A program made the position numbers and the translations under genes. The notes under the pieces are model-generated. The model saw nothing but the letters and a program-made list of their open reading frames with translations, had not been told where the DNA came from and made no database searches. DNA of 64,000 bases from Oceanospirillaceae bacterium ASP10-02a. GTDB taxonomy: Bacteria; Pseudomonadota; Gammaproteobacteria; Pseudomonadales; Balneatricaceae. The stretch is taken from positions 1-64,000 of the forward strand of contig CAJIZL010000017.1 of assembly GCA_905182035.1 (NCBI GenBank). Direction: 5' to 3'. This document shows, piece by piece, positions 53,980 through 62,152 of this stretch; position 1 is the stretch's first letter; each line of letters opens with the position of its first letter.

Positions 53980-55062
53980 TTATTCAGTATAACTGATCGA
54001 TAAGCGTTGAGTGACCCGGGTCATCAGTTCATAACCTATGGTGCCCGCATGACGCGCCACTTCATTGATATCTAAACCTTTGCCCCATAAACACACGGGG
54101 TCTCCTACGTTAATGCCATCTAGACCTGTCACGTCTATGGTAATCATATCCATTGATACACGGCCAACTATACCTGCACGCTGCCCGTTCACCACTACGG
54201 GAGTACCAGATACTGCGCTGCGTGGGTAACCATCACCATATCCAATAGCTACAGTGGCGATGATTGAAGGCCTTTGAGCACACCATTGCTGTCCATAGCC
54301 TACGGTTTGTCCAGTCTCGATTTGACGTAAAGAAATAATGGCTGATCGTACCTGCATTACTGGCTGTAAGCCCTTGCTAGAGGGGTGGTCGGCATCTAAC
54401 GGTGAGTTGCCATAAAGCATAAAGCCTGGCCGGTTCCAATCACCATGGGCCTCTGGCCAAGCCATTATAGCAGCTGAGTTGGCTATGCTTACAGGATGTT
54501 TAAAACGCTTAGAGGTTTCTGTAAATAGCTGCACCTGATCCAAGGTGAAGTTGTTACTGGTTTCGTCGGCACTAGCAAGATGAGTGGCAAATACCATTTC
54601 CTCAGAGACATTAGAACTGGCAAACAACTGTTGGTAAAAGCCTTCCACTCGCTGAGGGTTTAAGCCCAAACGGTGCATGCCGGTGTCTACCTTAATCCAC
54701 ACTTTCAGTGGTTTAGTTACGCTAGCATTCAAGATGGCATCAACTTGTATAGGGTCTTCTACCATAACCCAAAAACCATGTTCGGCAGCAATAGCCACTT
54801 CGTCGGCTGTAAAAGTGCCCTCTAATAGCAATATGGGTTTGTTGATACCGGCCTTACGTAGTGCTAAGGCCTCTTCTATGCAGGCAACGCCAAATGCGGG
54901 TGCATAAGGTTGCAAGGCGGTGGCGCACGCCACCGCCCCATGACCGTATGCATTGGCTTTAACTACGGCCATGGTTTGGGCATTGGGAGCGAGTTGACAA
55001 GCCCATTGATAATTGTGAATCAATGCAGCAAGGTCAACCACAATGTGGCTAGGACGGGCCAT
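53980..55062 (-). CDS. alr: Alanine racemase
   Basis: PLP enzyme of 360 residues making D-alanine for peptidoglycan. Lys35 in VVKANAYGHGAVA forms the Schiff base; KVDTGMHRLGL, the AIGYGDGYPRS block with the second catalytic Tyr region, and VGRVSMDMITIDVT follow. It is the last gene of the eight-gene minus-strand operon, 10 bp after the D-amino-acid aminotransferase. Its D-Ala product is a substrate for that neighbour. It could be the catabolic or the biosynthetic racemase; no second copy is in the window. Confidence 0.95.
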   Translation of the reverse strand: MARPSHIVVDLAALIHNYQWACQLAPNAQTMAVVKANAYGHGAVACATALQPYAPAFGVACIEEALALRKAGINKPILLLEGTFTADEVAIAAEHGFWVMVEDPIQVDAILNASVTKPLKVWIKVDTGMHRLGLNPQRVEGFYQQLFASSNVSEEMVFATHLASADETSNNFTLDQVQLFTETSKRFKHPVSIANSAAIMAWPEAHGDWNRPGFMLYGNSPLDADHPSSKGLQPVMQVRSAIISLRQIETGQTVGYGQQWCAQRPSIIATVAIGYGDGYPRSAVSGTPVVVNGQRAGIVGRVSMDMITIDVTGLDGINVGDPVCLWGKGLDINEVARHAGTIGYELMTRVTQRLSISYTE

Positions 55063-55072
55063 GGGGAGATCT

Positions 55073-55930
55073 CTAGTAGTTAAATTTGCCTGCGCTATAT
55101 AGCTTAGCTGCTTTTTCCCAAATAGGACCTGGCATACCGTCGCCTATAGCTTTGTCATTAATATGGGTGACAGGAGCGATCTCTTTACTGGAACTGGAAA
55201 TCCAAATTTCGTCGGCATCAAACACTTCTTGTTTAGTGACGACACGCTCTTCTACGGCAATGCTGCCCTCATCCCGCAATACACCTAAGGCAATGAGTCG
55301 AGTAATGCCGGGTAATATTTGGTGATCTAAAATAGGTGTAATAACGGTGCCATTTTTGACAATGTAGGCATTACAAGCACCACATTCGGTGAGCTCATCG
55401 TTGCCATTAAACAACAGCACTTCACCACTTCCCTGGCTATAACCCTGCTGATAATGCATCACATTACCGAGCAACGAAATTGACTTTATGTTACAACGCT
55501 GCCAGCGCTGATCTTGCATAGTAGTTACTCTATACGCATTCACTTTGTCTCTTTCTGGAATAGGAGCAGGTGGTATGTCCGTAGGCATGGCGAACACGGT
55601 AGGCGTTACACCTTTAGGGTATGGATGATGACGTTTAGTGTCGGCCCCACGAGTGACGTGCAAGTACAAACCAACTTGGGTGTTAGGGTTGCGTTGAATA
55701 ATCTCTTGGCACAGTTCGCGCCACTGTGCATGACTCCAGTTTAGTTCAATTTCCAAGGCGCCTAAGCCCTCGATCATACGGTCAATATGGGGACCAAATC
55801 CGACCATTTTCCCAGCGTAAGAAGGAATGACTTCATAGATACCATCACCAAACAAAAAACCTCGATCAAGAGGGGAAATACGGGCTTCTTCAATTGGCAT
55901 ATAGGTGCCATTAAGGTAAACAATGCTCAT
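55073..55930 (-). CDS. dat: D-amino-acid aminotransferase (D-alanine transaminase)
   Basis: Class IV (branched-chain/D-amino acid) PLP aminotransferase of 285 residues. It shows YLNGTYMPIEEARISPLDRGFLFGDG-type N-terminus, LYLHVTRGADTKRHHPYP, the Schiff-base Lys in NIKSISLLGNV and the SSSSKEIAPVT phosphate-site loop. The family typically exchanges D-Ala plus 2-oxoglutarate with pyruvate plus D-Glu. Many Gammaproteobacteria carry a dat gene next to dacA; here it is coupled to alr and the D-glutamate cyclase genes instead. Confidence 0.9.
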   Translation of the reverse strand: MSIVYLNGTYMPIEEARISPLDRGFLFGDGIYEVIPSYAGKMVGFGPHIDRMIEGLGALEIELNWSHAQWRELCQEIIQRNPNTQVGLYLHVTRGADTKRHHPYPKGVTPTVFAMPTDIPPAPIPERDKVNAYRVTTMQDQRWQRCNIKSISLLGNVMHYQQGYSQGSGEVLLFNGNDELTECGACNAYIVKNGTVITPILDHQILPGITRLIALGVLRDEGSIAVEERVVTKQEVFDADEIWISSSSKEIAPVTHINDKAIGDGMPGPIWEKAAKLYSAGKFNY

Positions 55931-55933
55931 AAC

Positions 55934-56821
55934 TTAATCTCTAATAATTTGACTAACCAGTTGGCTGGCGCTATCGGCTAGTAACTGTGGTAACAAGCGG
56001 TCTTCATCTTGGCGCCAACCACAGCAAAATTTTAATTTTGGTGGTGCTGGATCAACATTAAATGCGATAAGCCGTTCGGCCCTTAACGCATCTTCGACAA
56101 TAGGCTGCGGCAGTAATGCAATGCCAGCGCCTTGTTCGGCCATGGCTAACAAGCCAGACACGGAATTGCTAGTATGAAATTTAGGCTTTTCTACCACTTG
56201 GCTAAACAATTCTTGTAAGTGTTTACCAGGTCCGGTGGCCGCAGGAAAGCTTAAGATTGGGCAGCGGCTTAGGGCTGTGATGTCCATGTTGCGGCTACCC
56301 TTAGCAAAGTGAGGGTTACCAACCCAGGTTTGTGGGAGGGCGCTTAATGGCTGTGTATTAACGGTAATGGCTTGCCCGGTGTAGACCATCAGAGCTAGGT
56401 CCAGCTGATGCTCTTCCAGCTGTTTATATAACGCTAATGACAGGTCAATAGTGAGTTCAAATTGAATAAGGGGATGCTGTTCACGCCAGACTTTTAACAA
56501 ATCCCTTAGCCATAAGTGCGCTACAGTATCTGCAATACCAATACGAAACACACCTTGTTGGGGCGCATCATCTTGTAGCTGGGCTTTCATTTCATTACTG
56601 ATCGACACTAAACGTTCTGCAAAAGGCAGTAGCTGTCTGCCACGGGCAGTGAGCTTGGTGCCACTTTGATCGCGCTTAAATAACTTAACACCCAAATCTT
56701 CTTCGAGGGTGGCAATACGTGCAGAAATTGCAGGCTGGGAAGCATGTAACTGAGCTGCAGCACCATGAAAACTGCCTAAGGTCGCTACCTTTATAAAGCT
56801 ATTGAGGTTCCGAAGACGCAC
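55934..56821 (-). CDS. LysR-family transcriptional regulator
   Basis: 295 residues. The N-terminal winged helix-turn-helix has the LysR pattern FIKVATLGSFHGAAAQLHASQPAISARIATLEEDLGVKLF-like order (SQPAISARI visible) and a two-lobed ligand domain follows. It lies inside the operon, 33 bp after the DUF4392 gene and 3 bp before dat, all in the same direction, so it probably controls its own operon. The inducer may be D-glutamate or 5-oxoproline; this is inference from context. A palindrome at 61055 in front of the first gene is its likely target. Confidence 0.9.
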   Translation of the reverse strand: MRLRNLNSFIKVATLGSFHGAAAQLHASQPAISARIATLEEDLGVKLFKRDQSGTKLTARGRQLLPFAERLVSISNEMKAQLQDDAPQQGVFRIGIADTVAHLWLRDLLKVWREQHPLIQFELTIDLSLALYKQLEEHQLDLALMVYTGQAITVNTQPLSALPQTWVGNPHFAKGSRNMDITALSRCPILSFPAATGPGKHLQELFSQVVEKPKFHTSNSVSGLLAMAEQGAGIALLPQPIVEDALRAERLIAFNVDPAPPKLKFCCGWRQDEDRLLPQLLADSASQLVSQIIRD

Positions 56822-56854: not shown

Positions 56855-57712
56855 CTAATTACTAAAACCGGTTATTTGGCGCAATTGCTCAATCACAGAT
56901 TGACCTTCACTCACCGGCAAGCCATCTTCTGTGAGTTGATTTATACGTGTCACACCATCCACGCTGCCAAGGTCTGATAAATATTGCAAAATAGCTAAGG
57001 GATCAATTTTAGCTAATAAATCTTGTCCCTGCCATAGGCCGAGGAAGGCGATCATACCATAAGCGCCCCAGTTAGAAACGTCGGCAACGATGAGCTCATC
57101 TGCGCTGGTGACCGCAGGCACGATATCAAGCTTTTCAAGCACATGAATAATTTTCCCCATGCCTATTTCATTACCCCCATCACCCACAGCAATAGTGGGG
57201 CAGTCAGCCCATGTCATAAAGCCATCAAAACAAGCGGTTCGCTCACTGATACTTTCGCCACGCATGTTGTAATACCCACCATCTTGGGCCTGACCTGGAC
57301 GTTCGATAGAAACAATGGCTTGGGGATTAAAGTGCTTAAGTGCTGCTAAGGTATCAGCTTCTACATGGGTGTGATCACCTACACGGATTTCATGAGTACG
57401 ATAACGCCCGGCGAGCGCGCCCACCAGAGGTTGGCCACACACAATCACGGGTACAGCGCCTAAGTGCTCTAGACTGTCGTAAAGGGCGATCGTGCCCACA
57501 GGTCCATCGGTCTCAAAAGTGCCTACCACAGGGAATCCAGTGCCAATAAGCACCGTGGCACCTGGCTTACCCTTAATGCAGTTTTGTAAAATATGGGCAG
57601 CCCGCAGGCAATAGCCTGCTGCCAATGCTGGCTGCACTTGGGCCATGCCGCGAGGGTTGCGGGCCACCAAGGCGTTTTCAATCTGTTGGCTTAGTTGTTG
57701 GTCGTTTGGCAT
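56855..57712 (-). CDS. DUF4392 protein, D-glutamate cyclase C-terminal domain homologue
   Basis: 285 residues recognised as DUF4392. Visible blocks are VLIGTGFPVVGTFETDGPVG, SIERPGQAQDGGYYNMRG and the Gly-rich AVGDGGNEIGMGKI. The vertebrate mitochondrial D-glutamate cyclase (DGLUCY), which turns D-Glu into 5-oxo-D-proline, carries this domain at its C-terminus and DUF1445 at its N-terminus. A separate DUF1445 gene opens the same operon here (60181-60963). The start is 2 bp after the pxpC stop. Function as a stand-alone or two-part cyclase is inferred from homology and context. Confidence 0.85.
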   Translation of the reverse strand: MPNDQQLSQQIENALVARNPRGMAQVQPALAAGYCLRAAHILQNCIKGKPGATVLIGTGFPVVGTFETDGPVGTIALYDSLEHLGAVPVIVCGQPLVGALAGRYRTHEIRVGDHTHVEADTLAALKHFNPQAIVSIERPGQAQDGGYYNMRGESISERTACFDGFMTWADCPTIAVGDGGNEIGMGKIIHVLEKLDIVPAVTSADELIVADVSNWGAYGMIAFLGLWQGQDLLAKIDPLAILQYLSDLGSVDGVTRINQLTEDGLPVSEGQSVIEQLRQITGFSN

Positions 57713-57714
57713 GG

Positions 57715-58677
57715 TTAATCCTTCAGTTGCAGCAGTGCAGTGGCATCAAATTTAAGCTGCGCCAAAGTATTGATAGTATGGGCTTGGTGTAAATCCACGG
57801 CTTCAAAACGCAGGGTATCACCAGGCCTTAGTTGGGCAAGTCGTGCCGTATCACGGGCCATAACGGCGCCTATTTTGGGGTAGCCACCAATGGTTTGGCG
57901 GTCATTAAGCAATACAATAGGCTGTCCATCTGCTGGCACTTGAACGGCGCCTAAACAAATACCTTCAGAAAGCATTTGTTGAGATGGACAGGATACAGCT
58001 GGCCCTTCAAGACGCATGCCCATGCGGTCACTCCGATCAGTGACGGCATATTGGCCATGAAAAAAACGAGCCTTTGTAACAGGGTCGAATTGATGATGTT
58101 GATAGCCAGGTAATAGACGTAATACTGTATCTGCACCATTTTTGTCGGTGCCCTCTTGTCCGTACAATGGCCAATGCGCTTCAGGCAATGCCTGGCGTAA
58201 CAATGTAGTGATTTCGGTGCAGGGTAGGCTATCATTGGTTGCAAGCTTAGCGCCATTCAAGCCACCTACTTTTTCACGCATTACTGTGGCGCTGCTACCA
58301 AAACTTGGGCTAATGTTAAAGCCACCGGCCACGCCTACATAACTGCGACAACCATGGCTAGAATAACCAAGTTTTATCTCGTCTCCGTTAACCACTTTGT
58401 GGCTGCTCCATAAGGCTTTATTAACGCCATTTATGGTTAAATTTAAATGGGCCCCTGTTACGCAAAAGTAACTGTCTGTTTGGGCTAGTAGTTGTAAGCC
58501 ACCAAAGCTGACCTCAATAGCACAAGCGTTAGGAGTGTTGTGCAGCAATCGATTGGCCCATAAAAATGCTTCACTATCCAATGGCCCACCAGTGGTCAAG
58601 CCAATGTCATGCTGACCAAAGCGACCAAGGTCTTGTATTAGGCTAAGTAAGCCAGGCTGGAGGACTTTAAAGCTCAT
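57715..58677 (-). CDS. pxpC: 5-oxoprolinase subunit C (KipA/YbgK)
   Basis: 320 residues of the AHS2 carboxyltransferase-like family (older names KipA, YbgK). It starts FKVLQPGLLSLIQDLGRFGQHDIGLTTGGPLD-like, split here as LQPGLLSLIQDLGRFG and LTTGGPLDSEAFLWAN. CVTGAHLNLTING, DRSDRMGMRLEGP and LLNDRQTIGGYPKIGAV follow. PxpC with PxpA and PxpB cleaves 5-oxo-L-proline to L-glutamate with ATP. Its start overlaps pxpB by 11 bp. Confidence 0.94.
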   Translation of the reverse strand: MSFKVLQPGLLSLIQDLGRFGQHDIGLTTGGPLDSEAFLWANRLLHNTPNACAIEVSFGGLQLLAQTDSYFCVTGAHLNLTINGVNKALWSSHKVVNGDEIKLGYSSHGCRSYVGVAGGFNISPSFGSSATVMREKVGGLNGAKLATNDSLPCTEITTLLRQALPEAHWPLYGQEGTDKNGADTVLRLLPGYQHHQFDPVTKARFFHGQYAVTDRSDRMGMRLEGPAVSCPSQQMLSEGICLGAVQVPADGQPIVLLNDRQTIGGYPKIGAVMARDTARLAQLRPGDTLRFEAVDLHQAHTINTLAQLKFDATALLQLKD

Positions 58678-59380
58678 GCAGCTGACCCCCCATAGCTAGG
58701 TATTGTTGCTCATCTATGGGATCAAATTGTACACGATCACCTACGGATACTGGCATATGGGGTTGCTTTGCAGCGTTAAACATAGGCGTAGGGCAAAGGC
58801 CGATAAGATTCCATCCCCCAGGAGAGCTTGCTGGATATACTGCAGTTTGGCGGTCTGCTATGGCGACAGCGCCAGCAGGCACTTTAACCCTAGGGGTGGC
58901 CAGCCGTGGCGCAGCAAGACGTTCGTCTACTTCGCCTAAGTAGGCGAAGCCTGGAGCAAAACCAATGGCATAGACACGGTATTCTGTGGCGCTATGAATG
59001 GCGATGACTTGCGCTACCGAAAGTCCTGCATTTTGGGCTAGTAGTGACAGTTCTGGACCATACTTAGGGCTATAAAAAACCGGCATCCTAACCAATTGAC
59101 CGCTATCTTGGTTAAGTTTCTTGGGTGCGTTCAATATGGACCTTAGGGCTTTTTTTGCCCATAAATGATCGCACTGTGTAGTGTCATAAATAACCAGTAG
59201 GGATGCATAGGACGCCACTAAATCAATTAAACGATTACCAAAGTGTTGTTTAATCTGCTCACAAGATGCCGCAATAGCCGCACTTACGACAGGGCTAATG
59301 TGTAAGCTATCAGGATCACCGAAATAGACCATATAACTATTTTCACTGGCTATTTCTATATGTGCTTGTTTAGTGCTCAT
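58667..59380 (-). CDS. pxpB: 5-oxoprolinase subunit B (KipI/YbgJ)
   Basis: 237 residues of the AHS1 family (KipI, YbgJ). Diagnostic blocks are MVYFGDPDSLHISP, SYASLLVIYDTT, the VYAIGFAPGFAYLGEVDERLAAPR segment (AIGFAPGFAYLG visible), PRVKVPAGAVAIA and YPASSPGGWNLIG. In B. subtilis KipI also inhibits sporulation kinase A, but its general role is 5-oxoprolinase. It sits 9 bp after pxpA and overlaps pxpC. Confidence 0.94.
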   Translation of the reverse strand: MSTKQAHIEIASENSYMVYFGDPDSLHISPVVSAAIAASCEQIKQHFGNRLIDLVASYASLLVIYDTTQCDHLWAKKALRSILNAPKKLNQDSGQLVRMPVFYSPKYGPELSLLAQNAGLSVAQVIAIHSATEYRVYAIGFAPGFAYLGEVDERLAAPRLATPRVKVPAGAVAIADRQTAVYPASSPGGWNLIGLCPTPMFNAAKQPHMPVSVGDRVQFDPIDEQQYLAMGGQLHEL

Positions 59381-59389
59381 GGCTTTAGG

Positions 59390-60166
59390 TTATGCCTTGC
59401 CAGCCAATGGAATATCCATTAATTGGCGAATTGACGTAATTGCTGCAATGCCGGCATCATTGTCTCCGTGCACACAGAGGCTATCTACCTTAAGATGCAA
59501 GGTTGCACCACTGGCGCTGGTAATCGTGCCGTGCTGCGTTAACTGTTGTACTTGTTTGAGCATGGCATCATGATCTAGTACGGCGCCAGCTTTAGAACGG
59601 GCCATCAAACTACCATCATCTTCATAACAACGATCGGCAAAAGCCTCAAAGTACAATTCCAGCTGTAAGTCTTGTGCCTGTTGTAGATGCTCCTCAGCGT
59701 TCGCGTTGGCTTGCAGCATTAATTTTAATGGCGGATTTGCTTCCCTATTGGCCGTTGCTCGGGTTGGGTAGCTACTTACTGCTTGCATAATGGCATTTCG
59801 CACCGCTACTTTACTCATCATGTCGTTGTACAAAGCGCCATGGGGTTTTACATAACTTAGTGTTAGCCCTTGGCATGCAGCCATGCCTTCCATAGCGGCG
59901 ATCTGATAATGCATAAATGCAATTATTTCTTGCTCTGAACAGTTCATGGAGCGGCGCCCAAAACCCACCAGATCTGGGTATGCAGGGTGAGCACCCACCA
60001 TCACCTTGTGTTGCTTTGCTAATGCCAAAGTGTGTTGCATTACCTGTGGGTCACCTGCATGAAAACCACAGGCAATGTTAGCTTGGTCAATGTGCGGCAT
60101 GGCTCTGGCGTCATGGCCTATAGTCCAAGAGCCGTAGCTTTCGCCTAAATCGCAATTAAGCAACAT
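59390..60166 (-). CDS. pxpA: 5-oxoprolinase subunit A (LamB/YcsF family)
   Basis: 258 residues. The metal-binding barrel begins LLNCDLGESYGSW; IDQANIACGFHAGDPQ and VGAHPAYPDLVGFGRRSM are the clearest family blocks, followed by YVKPHGALYNDM and the YEDDGSLMARSKAGAVL segment. It phosphorylates/hydrolyses 5-oxoproline jointly with PxpBC. It lies 14 bp after the DUF1445 gene, an order related to the B. subtilis ycsF-ycsI-kipIA locus. Confidence 0.94.
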   Translation of the reverse strand: MLLNCDLGESYGSWTIGHDARAMPHIDQANIACGFHAGDPQVMQHTLALAKQHKVMVGAHPAYPDLVGFGRRSMNCSEQEIIAFMHYQIAAMEGMAACQGLTLSYVKPHGALYNDMMSKVAVRNAIMQAVSSYPTRATANREANPPLKLMLQANANAEEHLQQAQDLQLELYFEAFADRCYEDDGSLMARSKAGAVLDHDAMLKQVQQLTQHGTITSASGATLHLKVDSLCVHGDNDAGIAAITSIRQLMDIPLAGKA

Positions 60167-60180
60167 AAAATCTTCCTTGC

Positions 60181-60963
60181 CTAGAATATGGCTAGTTGGC
60201 TGTTAGGTAAATCGGTTACCAGCATACATCCTGGCGCATGGGTAATACAAAATGGTGGTTTAGCATTTTCAACGGCCACTTGTGGGGTTACACCACAGGC
60301 CCAGTAGACTGGAACTTCGCCTTCGTTAACGGTAACCTTGTCTCCAAAATCAGGCTGGTTTAGATCCCCAATGCCGATCTCGCTGGGCTCTCCAAAGTGT
60401 ACTGGAGCCCCATGCACAGATGGGAAGCGGCTACATATCTGAATGGCTCGGATAGCGTCAGCGGGTTTGTATGGGCGCATACTTACTACCATGTTCCCTG
60501 CAAATGGCCCTGCTGCTTTACAGGCAATGTTGGTGCGATACATGGGTACGTTTACACCTTCTGTAAGGTTACGAACATCTAGGCCGTCGGCTAGCAGCGC
60601 TTCTTCAAAAGAGAAAGAACAACCCAGCACAAAAGCCACTAAGTCGTCACGCCAATGGTCTAGAATATTGGTGACTTGATGTTCAGCCTGACCATGATTA
60701 AATAGTCTATACTGGGGTATGTCAGTGCGCAGGTCGATGTCTTTGCCCAGGCTTTTTAAACGGAAGTCGCCAGGGTTTTCTGACATGCCAATAATAGGGC
60801 ATGGCTTGGGATTTAGGTGGCAGAATTTTAAAAAGTCATTGGCATACTCGGCGGGTAAAATGCACAGGTTGCCCTGCACGTAACCGGGACATAATCCAGA
60901 GGTATTGCTGGTCATAGACCCGTTACGAATCTGTTGCCTAAGTTGCAGTGGTGAAAGGGTCAT
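60181..60963 (-). CDS. DUF1445 (YcsI family) protein, D-glutamate cyclase N-terminal domain homologue
   Basis: 260 residues of the family annotated as putative hydro-lyase (YcsI). It starts [30 protein letters not shown] in the family pattern ([13 protein letters not shown] visible). [40 protein letters not shown]-like segments and [27 protein letters not shown] near the end follow. In vertebrate D-glutamate cyclase this domain precedes DUF4392 in one chain. It is the first gene of the operon and starts 92 bp from the 25-bp palindrome. No independent activity is established to my knowledge. Confidence 0.88.
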
Positions 60964-61054
60964 AGGGCTTCCGACGATTAATGATGGCTATATATGTAGT
61001 AACATGTATTTTGCAGGCCAAGGGGGGTAAGTGTCTAATTAAATCTATTTCGAG

Positions 61055-61115
61055 TATTGATAGATATATTCTATCAATAATTGGCTTATTGATAATTTAA
61101 CGGCTTAATTGATAG
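61055..61115. promoter_or_regulatory. Palindromic operator with extra half-sites
   Basis: TATTGATAG-N7-CTATCAATA (61055-61079) is a perfect 9-bp inverted repeat. Further TATTGATA (61087-61094) and ATTGATAG (61108-61115) half-sites follow in the same orientation. The group lies between the DUF1445 gene and mltB. The T-N11-A core within an interrupted dyad is the form LysR-type regulators use, and the operon encodes one. Confidence 0.65.
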
Positions 61116-61189: not shown

Positions 61190-62152
61190 GTGAAAAAGAT
61201 AGTATTAGGTTGTCTGCTCGTTGGACTTTTTAGCGTACATGCTGATGCTGGTTTTGACCACAGAGATGACGTTTCACAGTGGCTAGATGAAGCTGGTGGT
61301 TTAGGGTTTACTAAAACTGAGGTGGCGCAGTATTTGGCACAAACTACAGCTAAACCAAGTATTGTGCCGGTGTTACGTAACGCTCCGGAACGCAAGCTAT
61401 TATGGAGTGGTTATCAGCAGCGGCTGGTGACCTCGTCGCGTATTAAACGAGGCCGAGGCTTTGTCAAAAAACATGCTGCCCAATTACATTTGGTGGCCCA
61501 AGAAACTGGAGTTGACGCGGCCATTGTTGCAGCTATTGCAGGCATAGAAAGTAATTACGGCGCTAACATGGGAAAGCATTTAACCTTGCGTGTGTTGGCA
61601 ACATTATCATTTGACTATCCCCGCAGAAGTGAATTTTACCAGCGTCAATTAGCGGAGTTCTTCCGCCTTTGCTATAGCCAGGGCTTAGATCCCACACTGG
61701 TTAAAGGGTCTGCAGCAGGCGCGGTGGGTATGGGGCAGTTTATACCCACAAGCTATCGTGATTTTGCGGTGGATGGCGATGGCGACGCGCGCATCGACTT
61801 ATTCCACAGCGAGGCTGATAATATAGCCAGTATTGCCAATTACCTTGCCCGTCACGGTTGGGAGGCTGGTGCACCATGGCTGTTGGAGGTGGACACACAA
61901 GTGGAACCAGTTTGGCTGAGTAAAAAGGTCAAGCGACAAGGAGTGGCTTTAGCTAAATGGCAGGGCAGGGGTATAGTGGTACCCACATCAGTAGATAGCA
62001 CTGCGGAGTTTAATTTGTATGCTTTCTCAACTGAAGGTCAAAGCGAATATCGCCTAGCAGGAGCTAACTTCTACGCCATAACACGTTATAATCATTCCCT
62101 TTGGTATAGTCGAGCGGTGGTGGAAATTGCCCAAGGTATTGCCAAACCCTAA
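61190..62152 (+). CDS. mltB: Lytic murein transglycosylase B
   Basis: Cleaves glycan strands of peptidoglycan, forming 1,6-anhydro-MurNAc ends. 320 residues. A signal peptide (KKIVLGCLLVGLFSVHADA) is followed by the SLT2 domain with the catalytic Glu120 in IAGIESNYGANMG, then TLSFDYPRRSEFYQRQL, GSAAGAVGMGQFIPTSYRDFAVD (split) and NIASIANYLARHGW. GTG at 61190 is chosen because AAGGAG lies about six bases upstream and gives a clean signal peptide. An upstream start at 61109 would overlap the operator half-site. The Cys in VLGC is too early for a normal lipobox, so a soluble form is likely. Confidence 0.93.
   Translation: MKKIVLGCLLVGLFSVHADAGFDHRDDVSQWLDEAGGLGFTKTEVAQYLAQTTAKPSIVPVLRNAPERKLLWSGYQQRLVTSSRIKRGRGFVKKHAAQLHLVAQETGVDAAIVAAIAGIESNYGANMGKHLTLRVLATLSFDYPRRSEFYQRQLAEFFRLCYSQGLDPTLVKGSAAGAVGMGQFIPTSYRDFAVDGDGDARIDLFHSEADNIASIANYLARHGWEAGAPWLLEVDTQVEPVWLSKKVKRQGVALAKWQGRGIVVPTSVDSTAEFNLYAFSTEGQSEYRLAGANFYAITRYNHSLWYSRAVVEIAQGIAKP

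Follow-up and report, generated by a model that had tools for sequence, protein, structure and literature searches.

In Bacillus subtilis, the pxpA, pxpB, pxpC and DUF1445 (YcsI) families occur together in ycsFGI-kipIAR, alongside a local regulator, KipR, of the IclR type. The operon described here brings together the same gene families and likewise carries a local regulator, but one of the LysR type. In Corynebacterium glutamicum, pxpTABC is repressed by the GntR-type protein PxpR, which binds 5-oxoproline; according to the available text of that study, its authors knew of no earlier work on the regulation of bacterial 5-oxoproline metabolism (PMC13274462). Going by the same text, the two loci are alike in pairing a dedicated local regulator with a palindromic operator before a 5-oxoprolinase operon, but differ in the regulator, which here is LysR-type and not GntR-type, in the operator, which for PxpR is agattgttcaacaatct and here is a palindrome of a different motif, and in gene content, the operon here adding PF07286, PF14336, dat and alr (PMC13274462). 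LysR control of a D-glutamate/5-oxoproline operon was not found in the open full-text literature, a body of work outside which most subscription journals lie.

The architecture of the promoter itself has closer precedents. As far as the available text of PMC8407307 describes them, LysR-type regulators bind a recognition site of the form T-N11-A, often at about −65, and an activation site at −35/−10. Compared with the operators in that text, the region before our operon is alike in its T-N11-A dyad, its predicted centre at about −66, its conserved second element over the predicted −35 and the presence of lysR in the operon, and differs in that lysR lies inside the target operon instead of divergent from it and in that extra half-sites occur further upstream (PMC8407307). 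It also differs in the regulator, which scores below the cut-off for all 25 NCBIfam families, those for LysR proteins included, among the matches listed (54 matched). A LysR-type protein at the locus, a T-N11-A dyad, and conservation together with regulator co-occurrence are features of LysR-type promoters that were found here and, judged by its sequence, the putative operator is a new instance of a LysR-type promoter architecture already known. ThnR provides a further comparison, being a LysR protein whose primary and secondary sites lie between genes that diverge; in the portion of that paper available, two target promoters were shown experimentally, whereas here sequence points to the operon side alone (PMC4834489).

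Within the window, by which we mean the whole 64,000-nucleotide stretch of DNA analysed, the features are placed as follows.

53980..55062, minus strand: alr, alanine racemase
55073..55930, minus strand: dat, class IV aminotransferase, D-amino-acid transaminase-like, below NCBIfam cut-offs
55934..56821, minus strand: LysR-type regulator with a GTG start, HTH_1 and LysR_substrate domains; proposed binder of the palindrome
56855..57712, minus strand: GLUCM-like_C (PF14336), D-glutamate cyclase-like
57715..58677, minus strand: pxpC, CT_A_B
58667..59380, minus strand: pxpB, CT_C_D
59390..60166, minus strand: pxpA, LamB/YcsF, 5-oxoprolinase subunit A (Pfam and NCBIfam)
60181..60963, minus strand: D-glutamate cyclase family member (PF07286, DUF1445) at the head of the operon; 'putative hydro-lyase' in NCBIfam
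61008..61013, minus strand: CAAAAT, hexamer predicted as the −10, with 18 bp between it and TAGACA; predicted start at about 61001
61032..61039, minus strand: ATTAGACA, which overlaps TAGACA, the predicted −35 (61037-61032); proposed as an activation site for binding, a −35 or both
61055-61079, no strand assigned: palindrome TATTGATAG-N7-CTATCAATA, centre 61067; proposed LysR recognition binding site
61088..61094, plus strand: ATTGATA, third half-site, at +32 relative to the first
61108..61115, plus strand: ATTGATAG, fourth half-site, at +52 relative to the first; may contact LysR distally or belong to an mltB promoter
61190..62152, plus strand: mltB homologue (SLT_2), divergent; GTG start inferred from AAGGAG upstream

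The operon carries a single LysR gene, located inside it, and opens with a member of the DUF1445 family, the annotation of which is divided between Pfam ('D-glutamate cyclase') and NCBIfam ('putative hydro-lyase'). The palindrome lies between this minus-strand operon (from 60963) and the plus-strand mltB homologue. Its letters at 61055-61079 read TATTGATAGATATATTCTATCAATA, a perfect 9-N7-9 palindrome with the core TGATA-N9-TATCA, and T-N11-A is included, as TGAT-N11-ATCA in TGATAG-N7-CTATCA. Copies of ATTGATA stand at 61056 (+), 61072 (−), 61088 (+) and 61108 (+), so that 32 and 52 bp separate the last two from the first. An exact palindrome in the region between the operon and a divergent mltB, two further ATTGATA copies in one orientation and one LysR gene in the operon (at 55934-56821) were all part of the original prediction, and each proved accurate. 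The ATTGATA heptamer is not rare by itself (the window has 18 where 10.0 would be expected), so the weight is carried by the palindrome and its conservation. With up to three mismatches allowed, the palindrome has a single match in the 64-kb window, the mean in shuffles being 0.03. TGATAG-N7-CTATCA has one exact copy in the 2.09-Mb assembly, which is 89% complete, and two more places match with one mismatch.

We sought the LysR protein in 56 genomes, its own included, and took the DNA around 20 matches. Within the genus, the order of the operon and the divergent mltB persist in every case in which the contig extends far enough, and in the seven more distant loci no mltB turned up. In a wider scan with the LysR alignment, the best 80 of 200 relatives were used as loci, many of them from Oceanospirillaceae, Neptunomonas, Amphritea, Marinobacterium and Cellvibrionaceae; together with the whole-genome loci and G022, these gave 70 regions upstream of the operon's first gene, a set from which L122 was excluded (LysR only 32% identical) and in which L112 and L139, which come from a single genome whose LysR gene is broken, were both counted. 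A search for the motif before homologous operons had been suggested with the original prediction, and it found the motif conserved: TGATA-N9-TATCA is exact in 59 of the 70 regions and present with at most one mismatch in 69, against 0.1 and 2.05, respectively, in 40 rounds of dinucleotide shuffling. The exact compound, in which the palindrome is accompanied by a second element, TTRGAC, occurs in 58/70 (0.0 in 40 rounds of shuffling). L094 is the sole region beyond one mismatch, with just 253 bases in hand there. It is one of the 12 regions without the exact compound, along with L050, L051, L052, L095, L098, L104, L107, L112, L127, L128 and L139; L098 and L107, whose LysR is 46-47% identical, have one-mismatch palindromes only and no TTRGAC.

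Several of these loci have peculiarities of their own. The LysR match of L112/L139 (identical upstream, L139 coming from G022) is broken by one TAG and one TAA, and the palindrome there is degenerate and has no TTRGAC, a state that would be consistent with operator decay following regulator loss. A second TGATA-N9-TATCA, again without TTRGAC, lies nearer to DUF1445 (−98 to −230) in L062, L069, L072 and L132. Both inspected loci in which the element stands 400-620 bp before DUF1445 share a small ORF between the two, similar in each and 63-65 aa long (L064:3501-3692 and L081:5465-5662, from Amphritea and Neptuniibacter); this ORF had no Pfam or NCBIfam match and is possibly an unnamed first gene of the operon. 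Five further loci (L070, L073, L077, L080 and L089) have a D-amino-acid transaminase-like gene after lysR, with the pxp operon absent from the fetched locus, and no exact palindrome was listed for them.

The second element lies on the operon side of the palindrome. Its plus-strand view, TGTC-AAT, is invariant in 14/14 aligned upstream regions, the other invariant columns being TGATA...ATCA, the TG of TTTTGC and two single A's. Read on the operon strand, the element (ATTAGACA) is −35-like, and TGCAAAATA (within the genus) is −10-like. A promoter scan picked TAGACA-18-CAAAAT as one of two promoter-like sites against 1.0 expected by chance, and is therefore weak by itself. The full order of the compound element is TGATA-N9-TATCA, 19-20 bp, TTRGAC over the predicted −35 and then a −10-like hexamer. 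Although gaps of 13-26 bp were allowed between palindrome and TTRGAC, the gap measures 20 bp in 43 of the 58 exact compounds and 19 bp in the other 15, the window's own being 19 bp. Hexamers resembling a −10 (A2 and T6, with at least 4/6 of TATAAT) follow 16-18 bp past the −35 in 39 of 48 non-redundant elements, versus 3.7 (maximum 10) in 500 shuffles. The centre of the palindrome falls at about −66 from the predicted start, which was placed 7 bases after the predicted −10. The original prediction had taken the ATTGATA array for that of a LysR regulator, with a strong recognition site and weaker activation sites. Conservation supports the regulator class and the palindrome as probable recognition site, but the extra ATTGATA copies are probably not the activation sites, the conserved ATTRGAC being operon-proximal, 19-20 bp from the palindrome. 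ATTRGAC could itself be merely a strong −35.

Beyond the conservation and the fixed geometry of the element, computation establishes its co-occurrence with the LysR subfamily, and the pairing of palindrome and operon is more than mere synteny. As a synteny control, we searched 11 genomes whose operon falls outside the fetched lysR locus. One of these, G058, gave no DUF1445 match; in the other ten the palindrome still stands before the operon, exact in eight and with one mismatch in two (L127-L130, L132-L137), the distance to lysR being not readable for at least two of the ten (L068 and L102, on short contigs). Of 293 sampled genomes of the order, 44 contain DUF1445 (the first gene), 7 a close orthologue of the LysR and 12 the exact compound element. 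Five of these 12 have the compound directly before the first gene, and all five possess the LysR; the remaining seven matches fall in genomes in which no first gene reached the cut-off, and a reversed control pattern gave one match. The 37 DUF1445 genomes without a close LysR orthologue yielded neither an exact palindrome nor an exact compound, and the five among them with a one-mismatch palindrome each carry a distant LysR.

A relaxed scan, defined after the sequences were seen, required a T-N11-A core with at least 7/10 palindrome letters, a gap of 18-21 bp and at least 5/6 of TTRGAC; as background, 89 of 2366 unrelated 1-kb pieces match it. The relaxed element stands before the first gene in 14/16 genomes with the LysR subfamily versus 0/28 without (Fisher p 1e-9), where independence is overstated because the genomes are related. 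The subfamily was scored as present by a close orthologue or by a distant match at E ≤1e-28, a cut-off of our own choosing, and G288 was counted among the 14 through its exact compound match. G191 has no element and encodes a more weakly related LysR (4e-37 to that of L146); counted as a carrier, it shifts the comparison to 14/17 versus 0/27. The two misses among the 16 LysR carriers, G118 with an exact palindrome at −192 and G170 with a one-mismatch palindrome, are both without TTRGAC.

The notion that the element is confined to close LysR orthologues turned out to be wrong, as a variant with the same spacing lies beside LysR proteins of 27-34% identity. Such a protein adjoins DUF1445 in some of the 37 genomes and in several Alphaproteobacteria; the variant element is TGATAAACGCCGTTTATCG-N20-TTTGAC in Azospirillum (LysR about 32% identical) and TGATAAAAAATAATTATCA-N20-TTAGAC in L146. 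By the relaxed scan, the variant is present in 17/19 DUF1445 regions with an adjacent LysR, the two misses being L148 and L167, versus 3/41 without, and all three matches of the latter kind (L173, L177 and L184) come from genomes that have the LysR elsewhere. Six of the 17 are near-identical regions from Azospirillum/Roseomonas, so that independence is overstated here as well. In these distant-region counts, G020 and G034 give two DUF1445 copies each, and G037 and G043 were entered twice each among the regions without an adjacent LysR. The best match of the Azospirillum LysR in the genome of the window is the window LysR (9e-49, the next being 4e-20), so that the distant proteins and the window LysR look like one subfamily.

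The original prediction also tied the sites to mltB, and the strongest competing explanation to be weighed is a divergent switch, in which the same LysR array would govern mltB as well through the extra half-sites and couple wall hydrolysis to D-Glu status. We consider this unlikely. The divergent mltB does stand beside the element in 14/14 genus genomes in which the region upstream of the operon was seen (in one further genus member, the incomplete genome G004, DUF1445 and mltB were both not found), and ThnR, in the available text, is a precedent for a LysR regulator at close divergent promoters (PMC4834489). TGATAG is moreover kept at +52 (51 in one) in 8/14 genus genomes, and when all 10 closer genomes are aligned, without selection for the site, these six bases agree with the window in a mean of 8.8/10, versus 5.9 for the preceding spacer and 5.1 for the stretch that follows; being better kept than its surroundings, the +52 half-site is probably functional, either as a distal LysR contact or as part of an mltB promoter. 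Yet it is absent in 6/14 genus genomes, and TGATA at +32/33 is absent in 10/14, occurring only in G000, G001, G013 and G007. A sub-group comprising G014, G011, G009 and G003 (L033, L034, L036 and L126) has TGATAA at +21 instead of the +52 site. The offsets of 32 and 52 near whole helical turns speak for the switch; offsets of 21, 32 and 52 amount to about 2, 3 and 5 turns, though over too few independent cases to argue for phasing, and G006 has another half-site at +68, outside helical phasing. Against the switch, the other genera sampled have the palindrome before the operon with no mltB found adjoining, which leaves the link to mltB unsupported, and the loci of about 3.9 kb around four mltB homologues (35-40% identity) that lie apart from the operon contain no exact palindrome, L194 having one match with one mismatch, so that the element was not found to stay with mltB without the operon. 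The promoter scan gave none on the mltB strand, and an mltB promoter formed from TTGATA/GATAGC, sought by eye and by scan, gave nothing convincing. On gene order and the mltB loci elsewhere, the palindrome was rejected as an mltB element, mltB standing beside the element in this genus only among the loci examined. As far as can be told, the element serves the D-glutamate/5-oxoproline operon rather than mltB. Since the 61108 half-site is kept in 8/14 genus genomes, it may have a local role, and a local effect on mltB through it is conceivable.

Many regulators bind AT-rich dyads, and another regulator, global or local, could bind the palindrome, with the co-occurrence of the LysR being incidental. 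This is improbable given that the genome has a single exact site, that the element follows the LysR subfamily (14/16 versus 0/28), also where the operon lies away from lysR, and that T-N11-A at about −66 from the predicted start fits LysR spacing. The inverted repeat might instead act as RNA, in a terminator or leader hairpin, and it does fold at −12.5 kcal/mol (z −3.1), with 3/200 shuffles folding equally well. However, the repeat lies upstream of the predicted operon start and so should be absent from the operon transcript, a scan of the region found no terminator-like site, and a fixed base pattern is conserved at a fixed distance from the −35, as for a protein site; we regard an RNA role as very improbable indeed. 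A chance palindrome is close to negligible as an explanation: the intergenic region is AT-rich by eye and ATTGATA is common, but shuffles give 0.03 matches per window at up to three mismatches and 69/70 regions conserve the palindrome to within one.

The best reading takes the palindrome as the primary operator of the operon-encoded LysR, a model that we hold, as a whole, with its dimer, −35 contact and ligand switch, to be highly likely. Very probably, the LysR-family protein encoded by the operon docks on the palindrome, which many marine bacteria conserve at a set distance from the promoter. A LysR dimer would occupy TGATAG-N7-CTATCA, about 66 bp before the predicted operon start, a placement for which co-conservation argues strongly, and a second dimer of the same tetramer would touch the ATTAGAC element over the −35, as the fixed spacing and the conserved ATTRGAC suggest. 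A ligand would then shift the second contact and turn the operon on, lysR itself included. We infer the binding, the tetramer, the ligand, the direction of control and the start site; activation, not repression, is assumed from the position of the site. The ligand is probably a metabolite tied to the DUF1445/PF07286 enzyme, with D-glutamate or 5-oxoproline as the obvious candidates, and it may belong to DUF1445's own reaction, since some LysR-DUF1445 pairs are without pxp genes in the fetched loci. It is conceivable, if doubtful, that an ancient, unnamed LysR subfamily associated with DUF1445 in Gammaproteobacteria and Alphaproteobacteria senses D-glutamate/5-oxo-D-proline through one compound operator, and that a marine genus gained phased half-sites that brought the lytic transglycosylase mltB under the same control. 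The locus provides concrete operator and regulator candidates for a D-glutamate/5-oxoproline operon, and the pairing of LysR with DUF1445 gives a handle on an enzyme family of divided annotation.
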